Of a stretch of 23,011 bases of DNA, positions 1,243 to 23,011 are shown in pieces (the first letter of the stretch is position 1; each line of letters begins with the position of its first letter). The stretch lies in IMG/VR virus record IMGVR_UViG_3300025030_000425, positions 1 to 23,011 of that record. One strand, written 5' to 3'. Made by a program: the position numbers and the translations under genes. Under the pieces are notes generated by a model, which saw nothing but the letters and a program-made list of their open reading frames with translations, made no database searches and had not been told where the DNA came from. Source of the stretch: a virus.

Positions 1243-4200
1243 TTATTGCCCCATATCTGTAACTTCAAAATATCTTTTCAATATCATTTCCCGTTGCTGC
1301 TGCAACTGCCCAAGCCTTTCCCGAACATTTGTTGTCTGATCAATCTTTTTCAACTTATTAATTACTGCCTGGTTCCGGTTGAGAGCACTTTGAAAATTTT
1401 CATGCAACTTCATTTGCTTGAACCCATCCAGGTTTGAGTTCAAGAAAGTTCTCTTATCTTCAGAGTTTTCGAGCTGTCTCTTGAATAGCGTTACCTCCTT
1501 TCCAACCTTACTAAACTCTTGCTCGTTACCACTCTTCTTATAGTCAGCTCCTCTTCCCCAATGCCAATAATACAACTTACCCATCCCTGGTATAGATTCA
1601 ATTATTCTAGCATGATTAAAGTTCATTGTATCACCAGCTATATAATTGTCATAAGTTTCTCCTACATCCTTAGTAGCAGAATTAAAAAATCTAAATGGAG
1701 GCATTAATTGACTAGCAATTCCACTGCCTATACCTTCTTGACTAACTTTAGTTCTAATATATCTAGAAGCGCCACCAAGAACTAAGAAATTCTCAATTAC
1801 ATTATCACTAAACTTTGTTTCTTTCCCCAGCATCCAATCTTTAATCTCATCCGCACCAGCATTGGCAAGTACTAATAAACTTGCCAGCTTAATCATATTA
1901 GTTATACCTTCAATAATTTGTGCTTTATTACTCTCATTATATCCGTTTTCTTGAGCATTCATATAACCATTCTTCATATTGTGCCAAGCTTCTCTACGGA
2001 AGACATCAAACTGTTGAATAGTATATGTCTTGAGCATATAAGCTACTCTACCGTTTCCACCATTTAAGTATGGTGTAGGCATTGAAGATAAAGCAACCGG
2101 ATGAAAGTCCAACACTTTATGATACAGTAACATCTTTACATTATCACTCGGGTTGTTTGATAGCAAATCATTAATTACTGACTCTGAGGAAGGCCCAAAA
2201 ATTGGCTTAAGCTGTGTCATTAATTTTGCCCTTCCTGCATCTGAACTAGCCATTTGTTTATAGCGATCATGAGCTACGTTAATTAATGTCTCTTTGCCGA
2301 TTGAATCCATTTTTTCAAGACCAACTTTTCTAAAAACCCAACTGACTGCATTGCTTAAAGTAGTTCCATCTGCAAATTCTTGAGCTATTCGATCTAGGTA
2401 TAGATCTTCTTTTGTAATTTCTGATCCACCAAATAGTTTCTTAGTAGTTTTAAATTGTCCACTTGTAGCTTTTGCAGCATTTTTAATATAGTTAGCCAGT
2501 CCTTTAGGTGTCCAGACTTGAGCTACATACATCGCCCAAGCATGATCACCAATCTGTGTTACAGCTGCTAATGGCGATCCCAATACATCAATGTAAGATG
2601 CATTCTTAAAGGCAGTAACTAAGCCAGTTGTTCCATGCTCGTTAAATCTAGCATGTAGAATCTCCTTAACCATATGTTCATGATCTTGATTTAATTCTCC
2701 TGATAAGATTTTTTCTGTTACATATGCTCCAATATTTTCAGTATAATCGCGATCTTGATATTTGTATTCATCTAAAATTTGTTCGATTTGAATTATTTCT
2801 CCAGACAAATCATCTATTGTCTTATTAGCTATAGCTGCTTCTGCTGGATTAATATCACGTGCATTTTTAGCAACCAATTCCAGTTCTCTAATTCTTGCTT
2901 CTTTACGTGACCTATCTGCCTTAAGGCCAGCTATTCTCGGAGGAACTTTTCCAAAGAATTTTCTAGCTTCTATTTTTTTAGTCATGCTATAGATATAGCT
3001 CATTAATGCTGCATTACTATCCATGTAAAACTGAGCTAAATCTTTATCAACAATATCATACTTTCTTGCTTGAATGTTGCCTGGTCCTCCAATACCAAAA
3101 CCAGGATTAAGAATTTTATGACTAATCAAATCTGCTGCTCTTTCTGGGTAGTTACGAATAAAGTTTTCTTTATCCAATCCAATCTTTGCAGCTTCCTTAT
3201 CTAAAAGATTACTAAATTCTGGTTGGTTAGATATCTCTTTAGTGGCTTGTAAAAATCCAGCAACATCTTTAATTATTCGTGGCCAATATTCTTCTATATA
3301 GCCAACTTTATAACCTACATCTTCAGCATTTTTATGTATTTGATCTAAAACTTTTCTAACTTCTTGCCATTCATTAATCATATTATATTTAGTGGCTAGC
3401 TTTTCAATCTTAATTTTATCTGCTGATTGCGTAGCTTCATTCCAAATAAATTGATCTTCTTTACTCATTAACTTAATTTTTTCTAGCAATGGATGTGCTG
3501 CTTTAAGGGCATGAGTAATTTCTCTGGCTGTTTTAATGTCTATGTTTCTATACTCCATTGCAAGTTGCTTATCTACATTTAACAATCTTGTATAGGATGA
3601 TCCTCCAAATTTATCTATAAACTGCTTAACTTCACTAGCCCTCATGTGAAGAGTCTTTCCGATTCTACGAACTATATTATTCTTATCTTTATATCGTTGT
3701 TGATATTCCTCATCGCTAATCTTCTGCACTGGGGTTTCACGAACCTCGAACATAGGCATACCTTCACGGAGTGCCTTAGATTTCATGCGGTTCGTGATTG
3801 GAATAGATAATGCATCAAAAAATATATTATCTCCTGCATGATAAGCACTTGTATCTACTTCGATTGATGTAGTTTCAACTCTTGCATTACCCCACTTGTT
3901 CTTATTGAACTCTGCATTAAAAGTATTCGGGAGTATTTTATCATAAAATTCTTGCATCCCATGAAGTCTTTTAGCCTTTTCTTCTTCAGTGCCTTGAGCG
4001 TAACGATCAAACTGTTGCTGCCCAGTAGTCCATGCAATCTTATCAAAACCATTCTCAGCAGCATACCTGACCATTCGCTTCATGGCAAGTAGTGACCATT
4101 GAGTGGAGTTCTTGAATGGCGCATTGGGAACACCCATTAGCATTTCATTATCTTGATACCATTTCTTTTCTTCTTCAGTAAGTTTTTCTCCGGATAATAT

Positions 4201-7200
4201 TTTTGCATCTAGCTCTTTAAATCGTTTATCTAACAGTTCTTTATAACCTATTTCTCTTCCTGCCTGATGCCAATCACTTTGAATCTCTTCAATAAACAAA
4301 ACCTTTTGTAATTCTCCTACCCCAAACGAAGAAGCAGATTTTTCACCAGCTGCAACAGCTCTACGATCTTCTTCACGTAAATCATTAAGAGTTTTAATAA
4401 CTTCTCGTTCATTGAACCTGATATGAACTAAAGGATTTACAACACCAGGCCAATGAACTTCATGAGTATAAGTACTTTTATCTTGCCTTGCTGGTAAAGT
4501 TAATATTAATTCTTTATAATTCTTTCCTCCAGGAAGTTGATAATTTTCATGTTCTGTGGCAACTCCTGATGTTTTTGGTAAAGATTCTTCATTAATTAAA
4601 CTATTATATTCATCTTGTTCATCAACAGATAAATTACCAGTTTCTCGTAACTTATTATCAAGCTCATCTAATCTTCGTTCTTTATCTACAGTCCAACCTT
4701 TAACAACTTCTTCAAGCTGAATATTATTCTCCTGAACAAACTTCAACAATTCTGCCTGGCTAACTTTTCCTTCCTGTTTATCAAGCCAATCATATAAACC
4801 AACCCAATCAAGTTCATCCTGCTTAATTCCTGGAAAGTTCTTAATCATTCCTTTCCATTGATCAGGTGTTGCTTGCTTCTGGTTAAATCCAGCAACTGCA
4901 TTCTCAAGTGCTGAGTACCATTTGTTTGCTACTTCTTCAGCCTGAGGAACAGTAACTTGAACAGTTTGTCCATTAACTTGACGCTCATAAATCTTTCCAC
5001 TTTCTACTTCACGAGCCAGGCCAGAAACAGTCTGCTTGCCAAAACTTAGCAATTGCTGAAAAAAGTCCATTACTCGTTGAATCACTTTACCGAAAGCAGT
5101 GTTTCTGTATTCAGCTCTGTTGACCATAATCTGAGCAAACATGTTCGCACGATTTTCAACCATCCTTTGCTTCGGGTCTTTGTGAGTACTCAGGGCAAAA
5201 TCAAGCTTACCTGCTTTACGAAGTTTATTAAACTCCTTATTCAAAGCACTATTATCTGCTTCTGTAACCAATCCTAAGTTGTCAAGGACATGCTTGTTCT
5301 CATGCCAAAGAGTCTTATTGTCTGCAAAGTTCTGGTCTAGAAGAATTTCATTCCCTATTGTAATTCCAAGGATCTTTCCATCCTTTGACATCTGGCCAGT
5401 TTCAATTGCTAACTTAATGAGGTCTTGTCCAGCAGCCTGAATGCTATTGATTGTTAAGCCTTGACCATTTTTGAACTGAACAAATACTGAACCATTTTCA
5501 TGCTGAGTGATTGTTTGATTTGGAAAAGCTTTCTTAATATCTTCAAGATTTACTTTGGTTAAGGCATCTTGATTTTCAGTTGCTTGAAACTGTGTAACAC
5601 TACCTACTTGCCGTTCATTAGTGAACCCACTCGGCAAACCTCCTGGCAAGTTTCTAGGAATCTCAGGTTCAACTGCCTGTCTATTTGCTATCTGAACATC
5701 TCCGAGATCTTTAGCAATTTGTTGAAACCATACTTGTCGTTTATTTTGTTCAGTTAAAGACGGAACAACATTTTGTTTTGCTTCACTTTGAGCTGCTGTA
5801 TCACTTTTGACATTACCTTCAATATTAGCAAGTTGTGTCTCAAAGAATTTCTTCCTCATAAATGCTTCTGTCCCAGGAGTCATTTCTTCCTGGCGAAGAT
5901 TCAATTCCTTTTTAACGCCCTGCCAATAATTTTCAATAACCTTTCTTTCTTCAGGAGTAAAACTGTTGTTTATATAGGCCTTTACATAATTTACATAATC
6001 TTCAATCTGTCTTAGATTATGTTCTTCTTCAGGAGTTCTTGAAGATACCTGATCATTTAAAGCTGATTGCTCTTGAGACTTATTTGCAATTATTTGATTT
6101 GCATAATCAGCTATAGATTTTGGAACTATTTCACTTGCTATAATTTGTGCAGATTCAGCAGCATCTTTTTCAAGCCCAACCTTCTCTCCTACATTTACTG
6201 TTCCGAAAAGTTCTTCAAGATACTTCTGCCTATCTTCTCTAGTAGTGTATGGAGCAAAAGCCTTCTTAACTTCAGGCAGTTCTTTATCAAGTAACTCATT
6301 ACGCCGTTTGTTTAATTGAATAAGTTTATCTTCAATTACTTTTCTTTCTTCTGCACTTGGTGAAGTTTTAGCATCTAATGAATACGGATCAAACTTTTTA
6401 TTATATTGATCAGAGAGAGTTGTAATCTCATTATCAATATTTGTAATCCTTTCATTAAGTTGGCTTGCAGATTCATACCTGTGAGTAGCTAACTTATCTT
6501 CAATTTCTTTTACTTCCTTCTCTTCAGGAGAAAGTGCTTCATACTCTTTCTTAGCAAGTTCTTCTTTCTTCTGAATTCCAGAATTAATCCGATCCAGGAG
6601 GCTTTGATTATTTTTATTTTCCTCAAGAGTCTTTCTGATTAATTCAGCCGGATCAACATTTTCTTCTCTTGCTTTTGTTTCAAGTTTATCAAGATCATTA
6701 ATGAGTTCTTGATTCGACTTAATATTTTCATTTAAAGTTTGAACACTCTTACCAAGTTCATCCTCTTTCAAATTGAGAATATTTGCTGCTCTTCTGTCAA
6801 GTTCTAATTCTTGCTCAGTCTTTTCAGCTGTCTTATTTACTCCTGGAAGTAAATTTGCCCCAGCTCCCATTACTCCGCCAAGAATAATAGCTTGTGCAGC
6901 TCCTTCAGGAACTCCATCCAGCAAAGGCTTATCAAGAGCTGCATTAGTAAATATTGTCTCCTGAACAGTTTGTGGTAATTCCTCAAATACACCCTCAGTT
7001 ATACCACCACCAATAATAGATTTCACAACACCTTTAAATCCTTCCTTCTTAGCAGGATTTAATCCAGAAACTATCATTGTATCAATATCAGCAAAACCAA
7101 GTTTCTTAGCTAACGATCCACCGACTAGACCAAAAGCTGCTGTTCCTAATCCTGATGCTGCTGCAAGTGCAGATTGTTCAGCAGTCAAAAGATCATTAGG

Positions 7201-7755
7201 CGTAGCATTTCTTATTTGCTCTGCAGTTTGTCCAGCAGATATTGCACCCTCACCAACTGATCCAGCAGCAATAGTCGATCCTGTTTTGCCTAATGCAGTT
7301 ACAGCCTTTGGTAATATTTTGCTACTAAGCGCAAGAGCACCACGCCCCAACACACCACCAGCAGCAACAGATGGCAATGTCTCAACAATACCATGAGCAA
7401 TAGTACTTGGATTTTCCAACATTGCTTGTGCTGTATCAGCAAAGCCTTTTGCCGCATCAACCTTTTTATTTGCCTCTTGTTGTGCTGGAGAATATTCTTC
7501 AGAAAGATCTTTCTGCCATTCTTCTGGTTTTATCCCAATGGATTCAAGTCCACGACCAACTCTACCACCAGTTGGAATATCAGCAAGGCCTACAATTCCT
7601 TGGCCTGCCCCAATAACACCTTTAGCAAGAGATATACCAGTGTCTTTTAATGTAGAACCTAAAGTACGTTCAGGCACAGGATTATCGAAAGAATCAAACT
7701 GAGCATAAGGATCTTCTTCTGCATCATCAAACTGATCGTAAGGATTTATATCCAT
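1243..7755 (-). CDS. Giant polyvalent phage protein (2170 aa) with zincin motif; probable ejected internal virion protein
   Basis: The last gene of the operon. It starts at ATG 7755 behind AAGGA, 36 nt after the previous gene. Residues 1-30 are acidic with a doubled PYxQFD motif, a pattern seen at the start of other large phage ejection proteins. Residues ~35-310 contain Gly/Ala-rich hydrophobic segments that could enter or form a channel in the host membrane, and ~310-450 are coiled coil. A zinc metallopeptidase motif HENKH (H818, E819, H822) is followed by VENRANMFA with E867, the HExxH...ExxAxxFA layout of IrrE-like zincins. Around 1156-1164, EEIQSDWHQ is the hallmark of a domain found in large polyvalent phage proteins. 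The C-terminal third is helical, with hydrophobic stretches at ~1715-1745 and ~1935-1970. It is probably packaged and injected with the DNA, where it may aid passage and cleave a host protein. No transglycosylase motif was recognised. The gene is certain; ejection and protease activity are inferred. Confidence 0.85.
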   Translation of the reverse strand: MDINPYDQFDDAEEDPYAQFDSFDNPVPERTLGSTLKDTGISLAKGVIGAGQGIVGLADIPTGGRVGRGLESIGIKPEEWQKDLSEEYSPAQQEANKKVDAAKGFADTAQAMLENPSTIAHGIVETLPSVAAGGVLGRGALALSSKILPKAVTALGKTGSTIAAGSVGEGAISAGQTAEQIRNATPNDLLTAEQSALAAASGLGTAAFGLVGGSLAKKLGFADIDTMIVSGLNPAKKEGFKGVVKSIIGGGITEGVFEELPQTVQETIFTNAALDKPLLDGVPEGAAQAIILGGVMGAGANLLPGVNKTAEKTEQELELDRRAANILNLKEDELGKSVQTLNENIKSNQELINDLDKLETKAREENVDPAELIRKTLEENKNNQSLLDRINSGIQKKEELAKKEYEALSPEEKEVKEIEDKLATHRYESASQLNERITNIDNEITTLSDQYNKKFDPYSLDAKTSPSAEERKVIEDKLIQLNKRRNELLDKELPEVKKAFAPYTTREDRQKYLEELFGTVNVGEKVGLEKDAAESAQIIASEIVPKSIADYANQIIANKSQEQSALNDQVSSRTPEEEHNLRQIEDYVNYVKAYINNSFTPEERKVIENYWQGVKKELNLRQEEMTPGTEAFMRKKFFETQLANIEGNVKSDTAAQSEAKQNVVPSLTEQNKRQVWFQQIAKDLGDVQIANRQAVEPEIPRNLPGGLPSGFTNERQVGSVTQFQATENQDALTKVNLEDIKKAFPNQTITQHENGSVFVQFKNGQGLTINSIQAAGQDLIKLAIETGQMSKDGKILGITIGNEILLDQNFADNKTLWHENKHVLDNLGLVTEADNSALNKEFNKLRKAGKLDFALSTHKDPKQRMVENRANMFAQIMVNRAEYRNTAFGKVIQRVMDFFQQLLSFGKQTVSGLAREVESGKIYERQVNGQTVQVTVPQAEEVANKWYSALENAVAGFNQKQATPDQWKGMIKNFPGIKQDELDWVGLYDWLDKQEGKVSQAELLKFVQENNIQLEEVVKGWTVDKERRLDELDNKLRETGNLSVDEQDEYNSLINEESLPKTSGVATEHENYQLPGGKNYKELILTLPARQDKSTYTHEVHWPGVVNPLVHIRFNEREVIKTLNDLREEDRRAVAAGEKSASSFGVGELQKVLFIEEIQSDWHQAGREIGYKELLDKRFKELDAKILSGEKLTEEEKKWYQDNEMLMGVPNAPFKNSTQWSLLAMKRMVRYAAENGFDKIAWTTGQQQFDRYAQGTEEEKAKRLHGMQEFYDKILPNTFNAEFNKNKWGNARVETTSIEVDTSAYHAGDNIFFDALSIPITNRMKSKALREGMPMFEVRETPVQKISDEEYQQRYKDKNNIVRRIGKTLHMRASEVKQFIDKFGGSSYTRLLNVDKQLAMEYRNIDIKTAREITHALKAAHPLLEKIKLMSKEDQFIWNEATQSADKIKIEKLATKYNMINEWQEVRKVLDQIHKNAEDVGYKVGYIEEYWPRIIKDVAGFLQATKEISNQPEFSNLLDKEAAKIGLDKENFIRNYPERAADLISHKILNPGFGIGGPGNIQARKYDIVDKDLAQFYMDSNAALMSYIYSMTKKIEARKFFGKVPPRIAGLKADRSRKEARIRELELVAKNARDINPAEAAIANKTIDDLSGEIIQIEQILDEYKYQDRDYTENIGAYVTEKILSGELNQDHEHMVKEILHARFNEHGTTGLVTAFKNASYIDVLGSPLAAVTQIGDHAWAMYVAQVWTPKGLANYIKNAAKATSGQFKTTKKLFGGSEITKEDLYLDRIAQEFADGTTLSNAVSWVFRKVGLEKMDSIGKETLINVAHDRYKQMASSDAGRAKLMTQLKPIFGPSSESVINDLLSNNPSDNVKMLLYHKVLDFHPVALSSMPTPYLNGGNGRVAYMLKTYTIQQFDVFRREAWHNMKNGYMNAQENGYNESNKAQIIEGITNMIKLASLLVLANAGADEIKDWMLGKETKFSDNVIENFLVLGGASRYIRTKVSQEGIGSGIASQLMPPFRFFNSATKDVGETYDNYIAGDTMNFNHARIIESIPGMGKLYYWHWGRGADYKKSGNEQEFSKVGKEVTLFKRQLENSEDKRTFLNSNLDGFKQMKLHENFQSALNRNQAVINKLKKIDQTTNVRERLGQLQQQREMILKRYFEVTDMGQ

Positions 7756-19349: not shown

Positions 19350-19826
19350 TTATGACAACCACAATCGAATTTCTTTTTCTCGTCGATTAATTAAGCCTTG
19401 AACTACTTTTCCATTATCATACTTCCATCGACGCAATTGAGTAGGAACATTATCATACTGCCCTTGATTAAGTAATCGAAGTAAAGTAGAATTTAAAAAG
19501 CCATCATCACCTACATTAAAAGTAAAACTAACTAAAGCATTAAATTGATTCTGTGTAAGTGTTATTTTAACACCACGATTTACTACTTTAACCACAGTTC
19601 GAATATCTTGTCTGCAAAGAATTAGTATTTGTTCAGCAGTTAATCCGTGCCTATATTCTATAATAGATTTACCAATTACAATCTTTCCTGATCTACGCTC
19701 AGAAAGTGTCAATAAATGTCCAATACCAATAGTTGGTTCACCACCTGAATCAAGATAAACTTGTTTATAGCTTCCCTCAACATGTTTCAAAAACTCATAA
19801 AATTTATCATCAACTTGCATGTTCAT
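19350..19826 (-). CDS. Endolysin, GH24 lysozyme (T4-lysozyme type), 158 aa
   Basis: Hydrolyses the beta-1,4 bond between N-acetylmuramic acid and N-acetylglucosamine in peptidoglycan to release progeny. The catalytic triad is visible: E17 in KHVEGSYKQ, D26 in YLDSGG and T32 in EPTIGIGH. The spacings of 9 and 6 residues are exactly those of T4 lysozyme (E11, D20, T26). The helical domain follows with LTQNQFNALVSFTFNVG and an end RRWKYDNGKVVQGLINRREKE, also typical. The start is ATG 19826, overlapping the upstream peptidase stop as ATGA with AGGAAGG seven bases before it. A longer frame from 19853 is less likely. No signal peptide or SAR segment is present, so export would need a holin, and none was clearly identified nearby. 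Confidence 0.93.
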   Translation of the reverse strand: MNMQVDDKFYEFLKHVEGSYKQVYLDSGGEPTIGIGHLLTLSERRSGKIVIGKSIIEYRHGLTAEQILILCRQDIRTVVKVVNRGVKITLTQNQFNALVSFTFNVGDDGFLNSTLLRLLNQGQYDNVPTQLRRWKYDNGKVVQGLINRREKEIRLWLS

Positions 19827-20548
19827 ATTACTGCCTTCCTGGCAAACGCACACTCACCACCGCGTTTCATGAATACTTCTGCAAAATCATCAAGGTCCAT
19901 CACCCAGTAGCCATTACGCAACAAGTTCCAATCCGGCCATGAGTTTGGACCACCAATAATGTTTTGATGCAAATTAATAAATGTTCCAGCCGTACAGTGG
20001 CCACCAACAACCTCACCACCTGGAGTACTTAGTCCGTCTACTTCACGAGGATACATCATACCCTCGGTCCATTCCAGCCCAAGAATTGCTGAACCATAAT
20101 AATCAATGCCACGAATAACTTCATCAACAGTTCTTGCTCGACAATAGGACTCAATTAAGCCTTCTTGCTTAGCAGTCTGCATCACTGCTGCAAGTGATGT
20201 GCCATAACTAATTGGCTTCGATCCAGGTCGTTCAGAGCCTGGCCACTGATCATTATCTTGACACCTGAAATAAAACTCAAGCGCCCATTCATCTCCAAGA
20301 GTTCTTATTCCAGGCTCATGTTCAAGAAAGGCTGCAAATCCAAATCCACCACAAGCACTCCAATCACCTTGATTAAGCAAAGGATCTTTGAATTTCTTTA
20401 CTCGATATTTGCTAATTAATTCTCGATATCGTAAATCAATACCTTCATCAATCGGTGAAACTGTGAGAAGATTTGGAGCAGTAGGATCAGGCTGAAAGAT
20501 AAGGCCACAACGAGGATCTTGAGTTTCACTGCCATCTTTAAGTATCAT
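19823..20548 (-). CDS. Papain-family (C1) cysteine peptidase, 241 aa
   Basis: Contains the four papain marks with correct spacing: Q60 and C66 in LLNQGDWSACGGFGFAAF (papain Q19 and C25), H184 in EVVGGHCTAG, and N202 in GPNSWPDW followed by GYWVMD, matching the NSWGxxWGxxGY block. GTSLAAVMQTAKQEGL corresponds to the family's helix after the active site. There is no signal peptide and no clear propeptide; the ~55 residues before the domain end in a basic stretch (YRVKKFKD). It overlaps its neighbours by ATGA on both sides, between a membrane-anchored coiled-coil protein and the endolysin. The context suggests action on host cell-envelope or cytoplasmic proteins at lysis, or processing of virion proteins. 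The family call is strong; the substrate is unknown. Confidence 0.85.
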   Translation of the reverse strand: MILKDGSETQDPRCGLIFQPDPTAPNLLTVSPIDEGIDLRYRELISKYRVKKFKDPLLNQGDWSACGGFGFAAFLEHEPGIRTLGDEWALEFYFRCQDNDQWPGSERPGSKPISYGTSLAAVMQTAKQEGLIESYCRARTVDEVIRGIDYYGSAILGLEWTEGMMYPREVDGLSTPGGEVVGGHCTAGTFINLHQNIIGGPNSWPDWNLLRNGYWVMDLDDFAEVFMKRGGECAFARKAVI

Positions 20549-21039
20549 GCTTGTACCTTACGAATTTCGTTAATGAGTAATGCTAAGTTACTTTCTTGAG
20601 CATCTCTTAGATCAGCGATTGATTTCTCCAGATTACCAAACCGCACTTTACTTGCAATATCTCGTTCAGTAGAAAGTTCATGGCAATTTTGCTGCATTCC
20701 CAAACAAGCTGGACGAGTAATAAACCTTGGTTCACCATCAGCTAATTTAAAGAGATTAAGAACATCTTTAATTGCAGCTCTGAGTTCAGCGATATCACTA
20801 GCATGTGCCCCCATTTCCGAATTAAGTTGTGAAATAGAAGCTCGTGCTATGTTAAGGTCGTCAAGTTTTTGAGTAAGTTCTGCAATCTTTTTGTCCTGCT
20901 CATCCACTCGTTCCTTATTTCTAGCTATTGCTTCCTTCTCTCTTTGAATTTTACTTCCCAAACTGATTAATGAAAGCCCCCATCCCACTAAAACTCCGAC
21001 CACAGCGGCAAGTGCTAGGAATCCGCTTGTCTCAACCAT
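20545..21039 (-). CDS. N-terminally membrane-anchored coiled-coil protein, possible i-spanin
   Basis: One transmembrane helix at residues ~6-27 (FLALAAVVGVLVGWGLSLIS) is followed by a charged coiled coil to ~95 (KIAELTQKLDDLNIARASIS) and a second helical end (~125-164). It lacks a cleavage site, so the body would lie outside the inner membrane. This is the design of lambda Rz-type inner-membrane spanins, which bridge to an outer-membrane lipoprotein and fuse the membranes at lysis; the length (164) is close to that of Rz. No partner lipoprotein (o-spanin) was found in the neighbourhood. An uncoupled membrane protein or holin-associated protein is the alternative. The start ATG 21039 overlaps the PLA2-like gene by 8 nt with AAAGGAG before it. 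Confidence 0.65.
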   Translation of the reverse strand: MVETSGFLALAAVVGVLVGWGLSLISLGSKIQREKEAIARNKERVDEQDKKIAELTQKLDDLNIARASISQLNSEMGAHASDIAELRAAIKDVLNLFKLADGEPRFITRPACLGMQQNCHELSTERDIASKVRFGNLEKSIADLRDAQESNLALLINEIRKVQA

Positions 21040-21589
21040 TCATTTCTCCTTTCTCGTCGGCTCTATAAAGACCATCTTCATTATCAGGTAATCTGGAAGC
21101 AAGAATTTTTGCCCAATAATTATTCCTCGCTGTAGCTAGCCTCTTCAGTCGATCTTTCACAGTAGGATTCTCCAATGGATTAACATCTTCTTTACGATTC
21201 TTAGTAAACCATGAAAAGAACAAGATTCCCATCGTACTAACTGCTGTCAAATATATCCCAGTTACCGAAGTCAACATCTTAATCTTAGGCCATACAGCAA
21301 GATCAGTAGCAAGAACTAACTCTACACAATTTAGAAAAAACCTACCATTCGCTCCCATAAATGCGCTTAGGTTTTTGGCTGAACAAGCCCACTCAACATC
21401 ATGACAAAGACCTGCTGGATTGAGATAAACCTTGCCTATCTTATCAGGCACTATTGCATCTCCCCAACCTTGACCAGCACCACAGAATGTTGGCCATGCC
21501 TCGGGAGGCAAATCATGAGGCCATAGAGATTCAAGAAAATCAGGAATAGTAAGATCAGCCCCCCAATATGAAATCTTTACAAAATTCAT
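21032..21589 (-). CDS. Phospholipase A2-like protein with C-terminal membrane anchor (185 aa)
   Basis: Residues 36-69 read CGAGQGWGDAIVPDKIG...LNPAGLCHDVEWAC. This is the CGxG calcium-loop-like start and the Cys-His-Asp dyad (C62, H63, D64) of the phage PLA2-like family, in which His-Asp activates water for cleavage of the sn-2 ester of phospholipids. A second acidic residue expected about 17-20 residues on is replaced by N81/G82 in my alignment from memory, so activity is uncertain; D96 is another candidate. One hydrophobic helix at ~105-128 precedes a basic, helical C-terminal part (KDRLKRLATARNNYW), suggesting a membrane-anchored protein. The start ATG 21589 has GGAGGAAGAA before it and overlaps the nuclease stop as ATGA; an upstream ATG at 21634 is inside the nuclease gene. 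Its position in the lysis region fits membrane disruption. Confidence 0.7.
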   Translation of the reverse strand: MNFVKISYWGADLTIPDFLESLWPHDLPPEAWPTFCGAGQGWGDAIVPDKIGKVYLNPAGLCHDVEWACSAKNLSAFMGANGRFFLNCVELVLATDLAVWPKIKMLTSVTGIYLTAVSTMGILFFSWFTKNRKEDVNPLENPTVKDRLKRLATARNNYWAKILASRLPDNEDGLYRADEKGEMNG

Positions 21590-22053
21590 TTCTTCCTCCA
21601 AACCCACGGCTGGACTGGAGCAGGACCAGCCCATAAACCTACTCTATTACCAGCAGAAATCCCTTGTAGCTTTTCCCAGGCTTGACAAAAGGACTTTCGG
21701 CAATATTGCGGATAAACCCAGGCATATCCAGCAAGCAAAAGCTGCTCTTGTACACATTGCGTTCCTATCATTACAACAGCTACTGTACGGCCATAACGAT
21801 CATAATGCTTAACATCAACAGGTGCAACATCAACAACCTTACCCTTAATCATGACTTCAACAAAATCTTTAGCAGCAAGACCGAATGATTGTTTCTTCTC
21901 AGGAGAATCAATACCATAAAGCCGTACAGTTGTTAGCCCAGTCTTGTCAACTACTTTGATTGTATCACCATCAGTAACACTTACAACTGTAGCTGGCTTA
22001 GCATAAGCAACAGAAGTAATTAATAAGAAAAATAAGATTATAATTTGATACAT
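21586..22053 (-). CDS. Exported thermonuclease (staphylococcal nuclease fold), 155 aa
   Basis: Hydrolyses DNA and RNA phosphodiesters with calcium. It starts MYQIIILFFLLITSVAYA, a signal peptide with an AYA cleavage site before KP, so the mature enzyme would be periplasmic or extracellular. The catalytic set is complete: D30 in TDGDT, R44 and E52 in TVRLYGIDSPE (nuclease R35, E43, with D49 as D40) and R89 in YDRYGRT (R87). Spacings match the Staphylococcus enzyme closely. The end (CRKSFCQAW, GLWAGPAPVQPW) is typical of the bacterial nuclease family. The start ATG 22053 follows GGGGT; a longer frame from 22092 would hide the signal peptide. It overlaps the upstream 62-residue gene by 16 nt and the PLA2-like gene by ATGA. 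Possible roles are clearing host DNA at lysis or blocking competing phage DNA. Confidence 0.9.
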   Translation of the reverse strand: MYQIIILFFLLITSVAYAKPATVVSVTDGDTIKVVDKTGLTTVRLYGIDSPEKKQSFGLAAKDFVEVMIKGKVVDVAPVDVKHYDRYGRTVAVVMIGTQCVQEQLLLAGYAWVYPQYCRKSFCQAWEKLQGISAGNRVGLWAGPAPVQPWVWRKK

Positions 22054-22254: not shown

Positions 22255-22338
22255 TCAATCACAGTCTTCGTTTGGATAATTACATATCGGACATCTTGGA
22301 CCAGTATATTTATATCCACACTGTTTACAAATTACCAT
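22255..22338 (-). CDS. Zinc-ribbon microprotein, 27 aa
   Basis: Reads MVICKQCGYKYTGPRCPIC followed by NYPNEDCD. Two CxxC knuckles (C4/C7 and C16/C19) are separated by an eight-residue loop, with Cys26 as a spare. It starts inside the end of the upstream gene: ATGGTAA joins its ATG to that gene's TAA, a 7-nt overlap. No Shine-Dalgarno is visible, so it would depend on ribosomes arriving from upstream. It ends 28 nt before the next ATG. The fold fits a minimal zinc ribbon, such as those that bind nucleic acids or partner proteins. Expression is unproven. Confidence 0.5.
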   Translation of the reverse strand: MVICKQCGYKYTGPRCPICNYPNEDCD

Positions 22339-23011
22339 TGCATCAACACTTTTTTGCTACTATTTCCATATGGAGCATGAAGATAAATTCCACCATGTGA
22401 TGTACCTCGGTCTGCATCACCTGTGCCATTAGGTAATCCATTACCTGGCTTATAAAGAAAACCATCTTTCTCTGCACGAGAATCCCTATTGCAAGTATCT
22501 TCTCTATCTCGACAATTCTTATTCGGATCTTTCACTACAAATGTAAGGCCATTTGAGAAAGTAAATTTTACTGGACCTGAACCGAGAGAATCTCCTCGCT
22601 TATTAATCCTCCAGGCTTGTCGCCCACCATTACGAACTCCATATGAATCATATTCAGCTTTATTAGTATAGTTTCCTGTCGGATTTGTAGGTGCTGCTCC
22701 ACTCTTAGCAGTACACGTCTGTCCATCAGAAGTTTTAACACTAATTTGTAGTGGACGAGAATATTGTGAATCAGAATTGGCCAGTAAATAAACCGGACAT
22801 CCTTTATAAGGTACTCCTCGCCTAGCAACTTCACCATTCACAATCACAGAAATAACTGCACTATCTTGAAGAGTACGAAGCAATACTGCTGGCTTTCCTC
22901 CATTCTGATCAGCACCCCGTTCAAAAGTTATAGGCATTGTGCATGCTTTTGTTCCATCAGGCAATGGTATAACTGGATCAGTTGGAGGTGTTACAGTTTC
23001 TCCGGGAAAAT
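22332..23011 (-). CDS. Cys-containing protein of unknown function, 5' end outside window
   Basis: 226 residues are visible and the frame is open to the right edge, so the N-terminus lies beyond the window. The visible part starts with a Pro/Thr-rich linker (FPGETVTPPTDPVIPLP), then a beta-rich domain (PAVLLRTLQDSAVISVIVNG, GCPVYLLANSD, PLQISVKTSDG), a Gly/Asn-rich section and an end GGIYLHAPYGNSSKKVLMQW. Four separate cysteine sites (KACT, KGCP, QTCT, NCRDREDTC) suggest an extracytoplasmic protein with disulfides. The linker and beta content would suit a virion-surface or exported protein. No family was recognised. Its last codons overlap the zinc-ribbon microprotein. Confidence 0.65.
   Translation of the reverse strand, partial: FPGETVTPPTDPVIPLPDGTKACTMPITFERGADQNGGKPAVLLRTLQDSAVISVIVNGEVARRGVPYKGCPVYLLANSDSQYSRPLQISVKTSDGQTCTAKSGAAPTNPTGNYTNKAEYDSYGVRNGGRQAWRINKRGDSLGSGPVKFTFSNGLTFVVKDPNKNCRDREDTCNRDSRAEKDGFLYKPGNGLPNGTGDADRGTSHGGIYLHAPYGNSSKKVLMQW

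Follow-up and report, generated by a model that had tools for sequence, protein, structure and literature searches.

A probable variant phage lysis cassette with exchangeable slots for nuclease, phospholipase-like, membrane, peptidase and endolysin genes

Background

The standard account of phage lysis comprises a holin, an endolysin and a spanin. On the minus strand of a 23,011-base virus record (IMGVR_UViG_3300025030_000425, the whole of which is referred to here as the window), positions 22053-19350 hold a compact run of overlapping genes in which an endolysin gene is preceded by those for a putative nuclease, a protein resembling phospholipase A2 (PLA2), a membrane protein and a predicted cysteine peptidase. 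What purpose does such a combination serve? The original prediction for this DNA described a four-enzyme cassette for dismantling the cell, which might either act in lysis, replacing the holin or o-spanin, or travel with the virion as an entry kit. Comparison with related viral contigs suggests that the whole is probably a variant lysis cassette, belonging to related uncultured phages of ~65-68 kb and built of exchangeable slots. The presence of refillable slots for nuclease, lipid-attacking and protein-attacking products beside the endolysin suggests that some phages open the cell by an assault on more than one class of macromolecule. For the large DUF1353 protein family the cassette points to a role that can be tested, and it supplies new candidates for outer-membrane disruption.

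Results and discussion

A conserved gene order with interchangeable parts

The five open reading frames (ORFs) of the original prediction are indeed present between 22053 and 19350, all on the minus strand, and overlap as claimed. They are designated here as slots 1 to 5: an exported staphylococcal-nuclease-type nuclease (SNase, 21586..22053), the PLA2-like protein F2 (185 amino acids (aa), 21032..21589), a protein with an N-terminal transmembrane (TM) helix and a coiled coil (F3, 20545..21039), a predicted papain-fold cysteine peptidase (PEP, 19823..20548) and a GH24 endolysin (19350..19826). SNase and F2 share 4 nucleotides (nt; ATGA), F2 and F3 share 8 nt (ATGGTTGA), and the F3/PEP and PEP/GH24 overlaps are 4 nt each. 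Overlooked at the time was the first gene of the coupled run, also on the minus strand (22226-22038), which encodes a Cys-rich protein of 62 aa with four Cys, has a strong Shine-Dalgarno sequence (GGAGGG) and overlaps the start of the SNase gene by 16 nt.

The same genes, with 100% protein identity, occur in a longer record (G001; IMG/VR 3300024999_000008, 68,416 bases), the start of which recurs ~127 nt from its end. Scans of viral contigs located this cassette or a relative in 62 contigs, many of which come from related samples or the same populations and are not independent, so that the count overstates the number of lineages and diversity is better gauged by the number of distinct architectures. 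Members of the main clade are arranged as Cys-rich gene, SNase, slot 2, slot 3, PEP and slot 5. The Cys-rich gene lies upstream of SNase or slot 2 throughout this clade, while PEP is constant and always placed between slot 3 and the endolysin. Slots 2, 3 and 5 are filled in at least 13 different ways around PEP, and in at least 5 more where PEP is absent. Beyond the main clade, distant F2 homologues (33-44% identity) are found beside GH24-type endolysins in contigs L124, L247 and L248. The relatives keep the order of the five genes while individual parts are swapped for unrelated ones that probably serve the same function, and it is chiefly on this ground that we regard the block as a functional unit. 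Recent common ancestry alone was rejected as the source of the shared order, since slots 2, 3 and 5 exchange parts that have no detectable similarity.

Purifying selection acts on the cassette. The dN/dS ratio was 0.007-0.17 in nearly all unsaturated comparisons of its genes, with values of 0.007 and 0.034 for the Cys-rich gene; the exception, at 0.31, was F3 compared with a 41%-identical homologue. These ratios show the parts to be genuine genes that are being maintained.

The distant lysis cassettes of L247 and L248 have a gene (5443-5865 and 5452-5874, respectively) placed between those for F2 and the TM/coiled-coil protein. Its product resembles a response-regulator receiver (PF00072, 1e-5, which falls short of the curated cut-off) and is a possible lysis-timing sensor.

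The endolysin slot and the choice between lysis and entry

The last gene was correctly called: by sequence it is a member of the GH24 family, matching PF00959 (1.1e-36) and the phrog_7 endolysin (7.6e-44). In relatives, slot 5 is occupied by GH24, a SleB-type hydrolase (PF07486), GH108 (PF05838), or proteins labelled LT-like, according to our own reading of the sequence, or M15-like, on the strength of weak matches to endolysin PHROGs. Among lysis genes, small endolysins are commonly swapped whole for others of a different type. We favour lysis over entry because five endolysin types are exchanged at this slot while the neighbouring genes stay, and also because annotated lysis cassettes of cultured phages include members of the PEP and DUF1353 families.

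The placement of the block among structural genes, just upstream of an SU10-type adaptor gene, is what one might expect if the enzymes were packaged or tail-borne and opened the envelope from outside. Such an entry kit, as entertained in the original prediction, found no positive evidence and is very improbable: it sits badly with the exchange of five endolysin types, it would leave the SNase with a signal peptide that a packaged protein does not need, and relatives of both DUF1353 and PEP adjoin holins in cultured phages.

L031 (11209-12120) has a 14-codon fragment of the gene that lies downstream of the endolysin and then, ~670 nt further on, a full copy, with an HNH-like ORF in between, an arrangement that suggests a homing-endonuclease insertion.

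The predicted nuclease and peptidase

Slot 1 belongs, as had been proposed and as judged by its match to PF00565 (2.7e-18), to the staphylococcal nuclease family. R44, E52 and R89 are invariant in 12 homologues, and we take them to be the counterparts of R35, E43 and R87 in staphylococcal nuclease. To the eye, the N-terminus is a typical signal peptide. Two distant relatives (L247 and L248) carry an upstream exported GmrSD/HNH nuclease where SNase would stand (PF07510, 1.9e-8 for L247).

The papain-family assignment of slot 4 was upheld by a match to phrog_16701 'peptidase' (5.8e-19) and by a structural model (predicted template modelling score, pTM, 0.68) for which Foldseek returned papain-fold proteases, among them cathepsin L (E 2.6e-4, probability 1.00) and xylellain. 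Candidate catalytic residues can be named, with Q60, C66 and H184 invariant and N202 nearly so in 13 homologues. No member of the PEP family (set A2) matched the Pfam peptidase C1 profile, even at E 10, and PEP is best described as a predicted papain-fold cysteine peptidase lying outside that profile. A PEP profile search of PDB sequences gave nothing useful, and no relatives were found among 84,980 prokaryote genomes. Homologues do occur in the Gordonia phages Lilbeanie and GMA2, where they stand among lysins and adjoin the holin, with lysin B nearby in Lilbeanie. These phages differ in having actinobacterial hosts and no annotated SNase or F2, and their peptidases share 25-29% identity with PEP.

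F2 and its DUF1353 alternatives

The reading of F2 as PLA2-like rests on two features, the motif CHDVEW and the loop GAGxGxGD. To this extent it stands: His63-Asp64 and the glycine-rich, calcium-loop-like GAGxGxGD are invariant or nearly so in homologues down to ~33% identity, and Asn81 and Asn87 are invariant across them. Other results count against F2 as a phospholipase. In every homologue Asn81 occupies the place where the second catalytic Asp would be expected (a tentative placement of our own); F2 matched no PLA2 profile and nothing in Pfam, PHROG, NCBIfam or PDB; and its comparison with DUF1353 by hhalign was not significant. The PLA2 family PF09056 was absent from eight virus records searched, the AlphaFold model of F2 has a mean predicted local distance difference test (pLDDT) score of only 48, and F2 relatives were found neither in the prokaryote genomes (the same 84,980) nor in cultured phages; the genome searches for F2 and PEP accordingly gave no lead to a host. 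Failing both the profile and the dyad tests, F2 is not classed here as a PLA2, though it may act in a similar way; we rate the chance that F2 itself has PLA2 activity at slightly better than even. The genes of the original prediction do form a co-conserved unit that most likely serves lysis, but four enzyme classes are too strong a claim where F2 is concerned. The membrane helix attributed to F2 is doubtful, since its hydrophobic C-terminal segment is borderline in the main clade (hydropathy 1.52) and lost in the distant homologues of L124 and L125.

Could F2 be a catalytically dead, PLA2-like membrane protein that has become a holin-like or regulatory part? The invariant Asn, the lack of a profile match and the moderate hydrophobicity of the C-terminal segment in the main clade would all agree with this. 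The idea seems rather unlikely to us, given how strictly His63-Asp64 and the loop are retained, the failure of distant homologues to keep the hydrophobic segment, and the exchange of F2 for DUF1353, a family with an active PLA2 among its members.

In L123 (~5836-6496) the reading frame of the F2 homologue is apparently broken, by decay or an assembly error.

The alternatives to F2 in slot 2 are two DUF1353-type proteins (phrog_1158 for L031, L033 and L043; PF07087, 5.4e-12, for L043), and one or the other, F2 or DUF1353, still fills the slot in relatives that lack SNase and PEP. DUF1353 accounts for >6000 single-domain sequences and also occurs in fusions with lysozyme, endonuclease and protease domains; its tested member, TtaP, is by assay a PLA2 of unknown biological purpose, the activity of which is abolished in D85A (PMC11525133). 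As in our cassette, TtaP has a cell wall enzyme for company, the muramidase TtsA of the same islet, but it is bacterial and not a lysis gene (PMC11525133), and no relationship of F2 to it could be detected by profile. Among cultured phages, Fusobacterium phages phiRTG5 and FNU_1P have endolysin, DUF1353 and holin in that order in a single run, differing from the present cassette in that no nuclease or papain-like peptidase is annotated, and in phages FNU1 and Carin1 DUF1353 is two genes from an amidase. Annotations that take over the phrog_1158 label, 'tail assembly chaperone', may be misled by it, that of phiRTG5 being a case in point, since the members encountered here are DUF1353 proteins with lysis-type surroundings.

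Slot 3 and the search for a holin and a spanin

The coiled-coil membrane protein of the original prediction was recovered in F3, in which a single TM helix stands out clearly (mean hydropathy 2.4) and which weakly matches Rz-like-spanin PHROGs (9e-6). Elsewhere slot 3 is filled by F5 or F6; the three are mutually without detectable similarity and have one hydrophobic segment each, and no relatives of F3 or F5 were found in cultured phages. That slot 3 is simply an i-spanin was rejected, since the TM segment of F5 is placed near the C-terminus; the slot is a candidate for either an i-spanin or a single-TM holin. Because GH24, PEP and F2 show no visible export signal, an opening in the inner membrane is needed, and slot 3 would be the best candidate within the window for making it.

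The suggestion that the cassette replaces a holin or o-spanin fared unevenly. In its favour, no convincing separate multi-TM holin was found in the four related 65-68 kb records. On the other side, an upstream lipoprotein and slot 3 could between them fill the spanin and holin roles, which leaves the replacement conjectural. Scanning the coding strand of the window for a lipobox revealed no o-spanin. In G001, a lipoprotein gene lies two genes upstream of the cassette, which places it beyond the window, and other related genomes have similar lipoproteins close to theirs; this conserved lipoprotein may be the o-spanin. Upstream of slot 2, some relatives have a small gene that looks holin-like, its product having two hydrophobic segments; family searches gave no confirming match for it, and no relative was found in cultured phages.

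Besides the overstated number of lineages, the case for a multi-enzyme lysis cassette is weakened by the absence of SNase and PEP from distant relatives, by the lack of any convincing multi-TM holin in the window as well as in the four related records, and by the occurrence of DUF1353 in cultured phages also apart from recognised lysis genes. An ordinary holin-endolysin-spanin cassette could have acquired passengers: slot 3 would be the i-spanin or single-TM holin, the lipoprotein the o-spanin and GH24 the endolysin, while SNase, F2 and PEP would have other purposes, for instance DNA scavenging or superinfection exclusion. The weak likeness of F3 to Rz-like spanins, the lipoproteins of G001 and other genomes, and the dispensability of SNase and PEP all lend themselves to this explanation, which we hold to be possible but short of probable. 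It leaves unaccounted for the retention of slot 2 where both other enzymes are gone, the position of PEP between slot 3 and the endolysin in every main-clade member, and the TM placement of F5, which is unlike that of an i-spanin. Passengers and a dead F2 are both compatible with a lysis role of the cassette, so that our confidence in these readings overlaps with that in lysis itself.

A proposed course of lysis

We infer the enzymatic activities of the cassette and the following course of events. Late in infection, SNase would be exported by its own signal peptide, while F2, PEP and the lysozyme would gather in the cytoplasm until the inner membrane is breached, whether by the slot-3 protein or by an unrecognised holin. 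The lysozyme would then cleave peptidoglycan, and PEP would cleave envelope proteins, perhaps the tethers between outer membrane and wall, or crosslinking peptides. Attack on phospholipids by the PLA2-type protein would cause the outer membrane to fail, with or without the slot-3 protein and the lipoprotein acting as a spanin pair. The nuclease could degrade DNA in the periplasm and lysate, reducing viscosity, or destroy the incoming DNA of rivals. A more speculative extension, in which we place distinctly less than even confidence, is that a PLA2-type protein (F2 or DUF1353) and the papain-fold protease disrupt the outer membrane in place of spanins, in hosts that are presumably Gram-negative, and that DUF1353, a widespread family among phages, serves them generally as a lysis phospholipase.

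Like the lambda-type holin/endolysin/spanin cassette of phages with Gram-negative hosts, the present one is a compact coupled run that ends in an endolysin and has a TM/coiled-coil protein and a lipoprotein nearby. It differs in its added slots for an exported nuclease, a PLA2-type protein and a papain-fold peptidase, in having no recognised multi-TM holin, and in swapping parts between unrelated families. The LysA/LysB/holin system of mycobacteriophage Ms6 likewise joins a lipid-attacking enzyme, LysB, and a one-TM holin-like protein to an endolysin, but LysB is a mycolyl-arabinogalactan esterase and not a PLA2, the hosts are different, and a nuclease or peptidase slot is absent (PMC6116114). 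No literature joining 'phospholipase A2', 'phage' and 'lysis cassette' was found in a search that most subscription journals lay outside, which makes this weak evidence of novelty.

Neighbouring genes

Family searches with the Cys-rich protein that heads the run gave no match. Upstream of it, also on the minus strand, is a gene for an exported protein (22332..23011) that is cut by the window end; the full-length protein has 260 aa (G001 36183-36965), no Pfam match and no relative found in cultured phages. The genes for this protein and the lipoprotein travel together upstream of the cassette (G001 35785-36965; L073), even in distant relatives, and the two form one fused protein in L051, L195 and L204. 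The pair could possibly constitute an o-spanin or act in superinfection exclusion.

Further away in the window, a minus-strand gene (1243-7755) encodes a protein of 2170 aa with no Pfam match and a HENKH metalloprotease-like motif, possibly a real internal virion or entry protein. On the plus strand, positions 41-502 encode a Thy1 thymidylate synthase (PF02511, 2.6e-30). At just 153 aa, and with a match that begins at profile position 63, it has possibly been shortened or cut.

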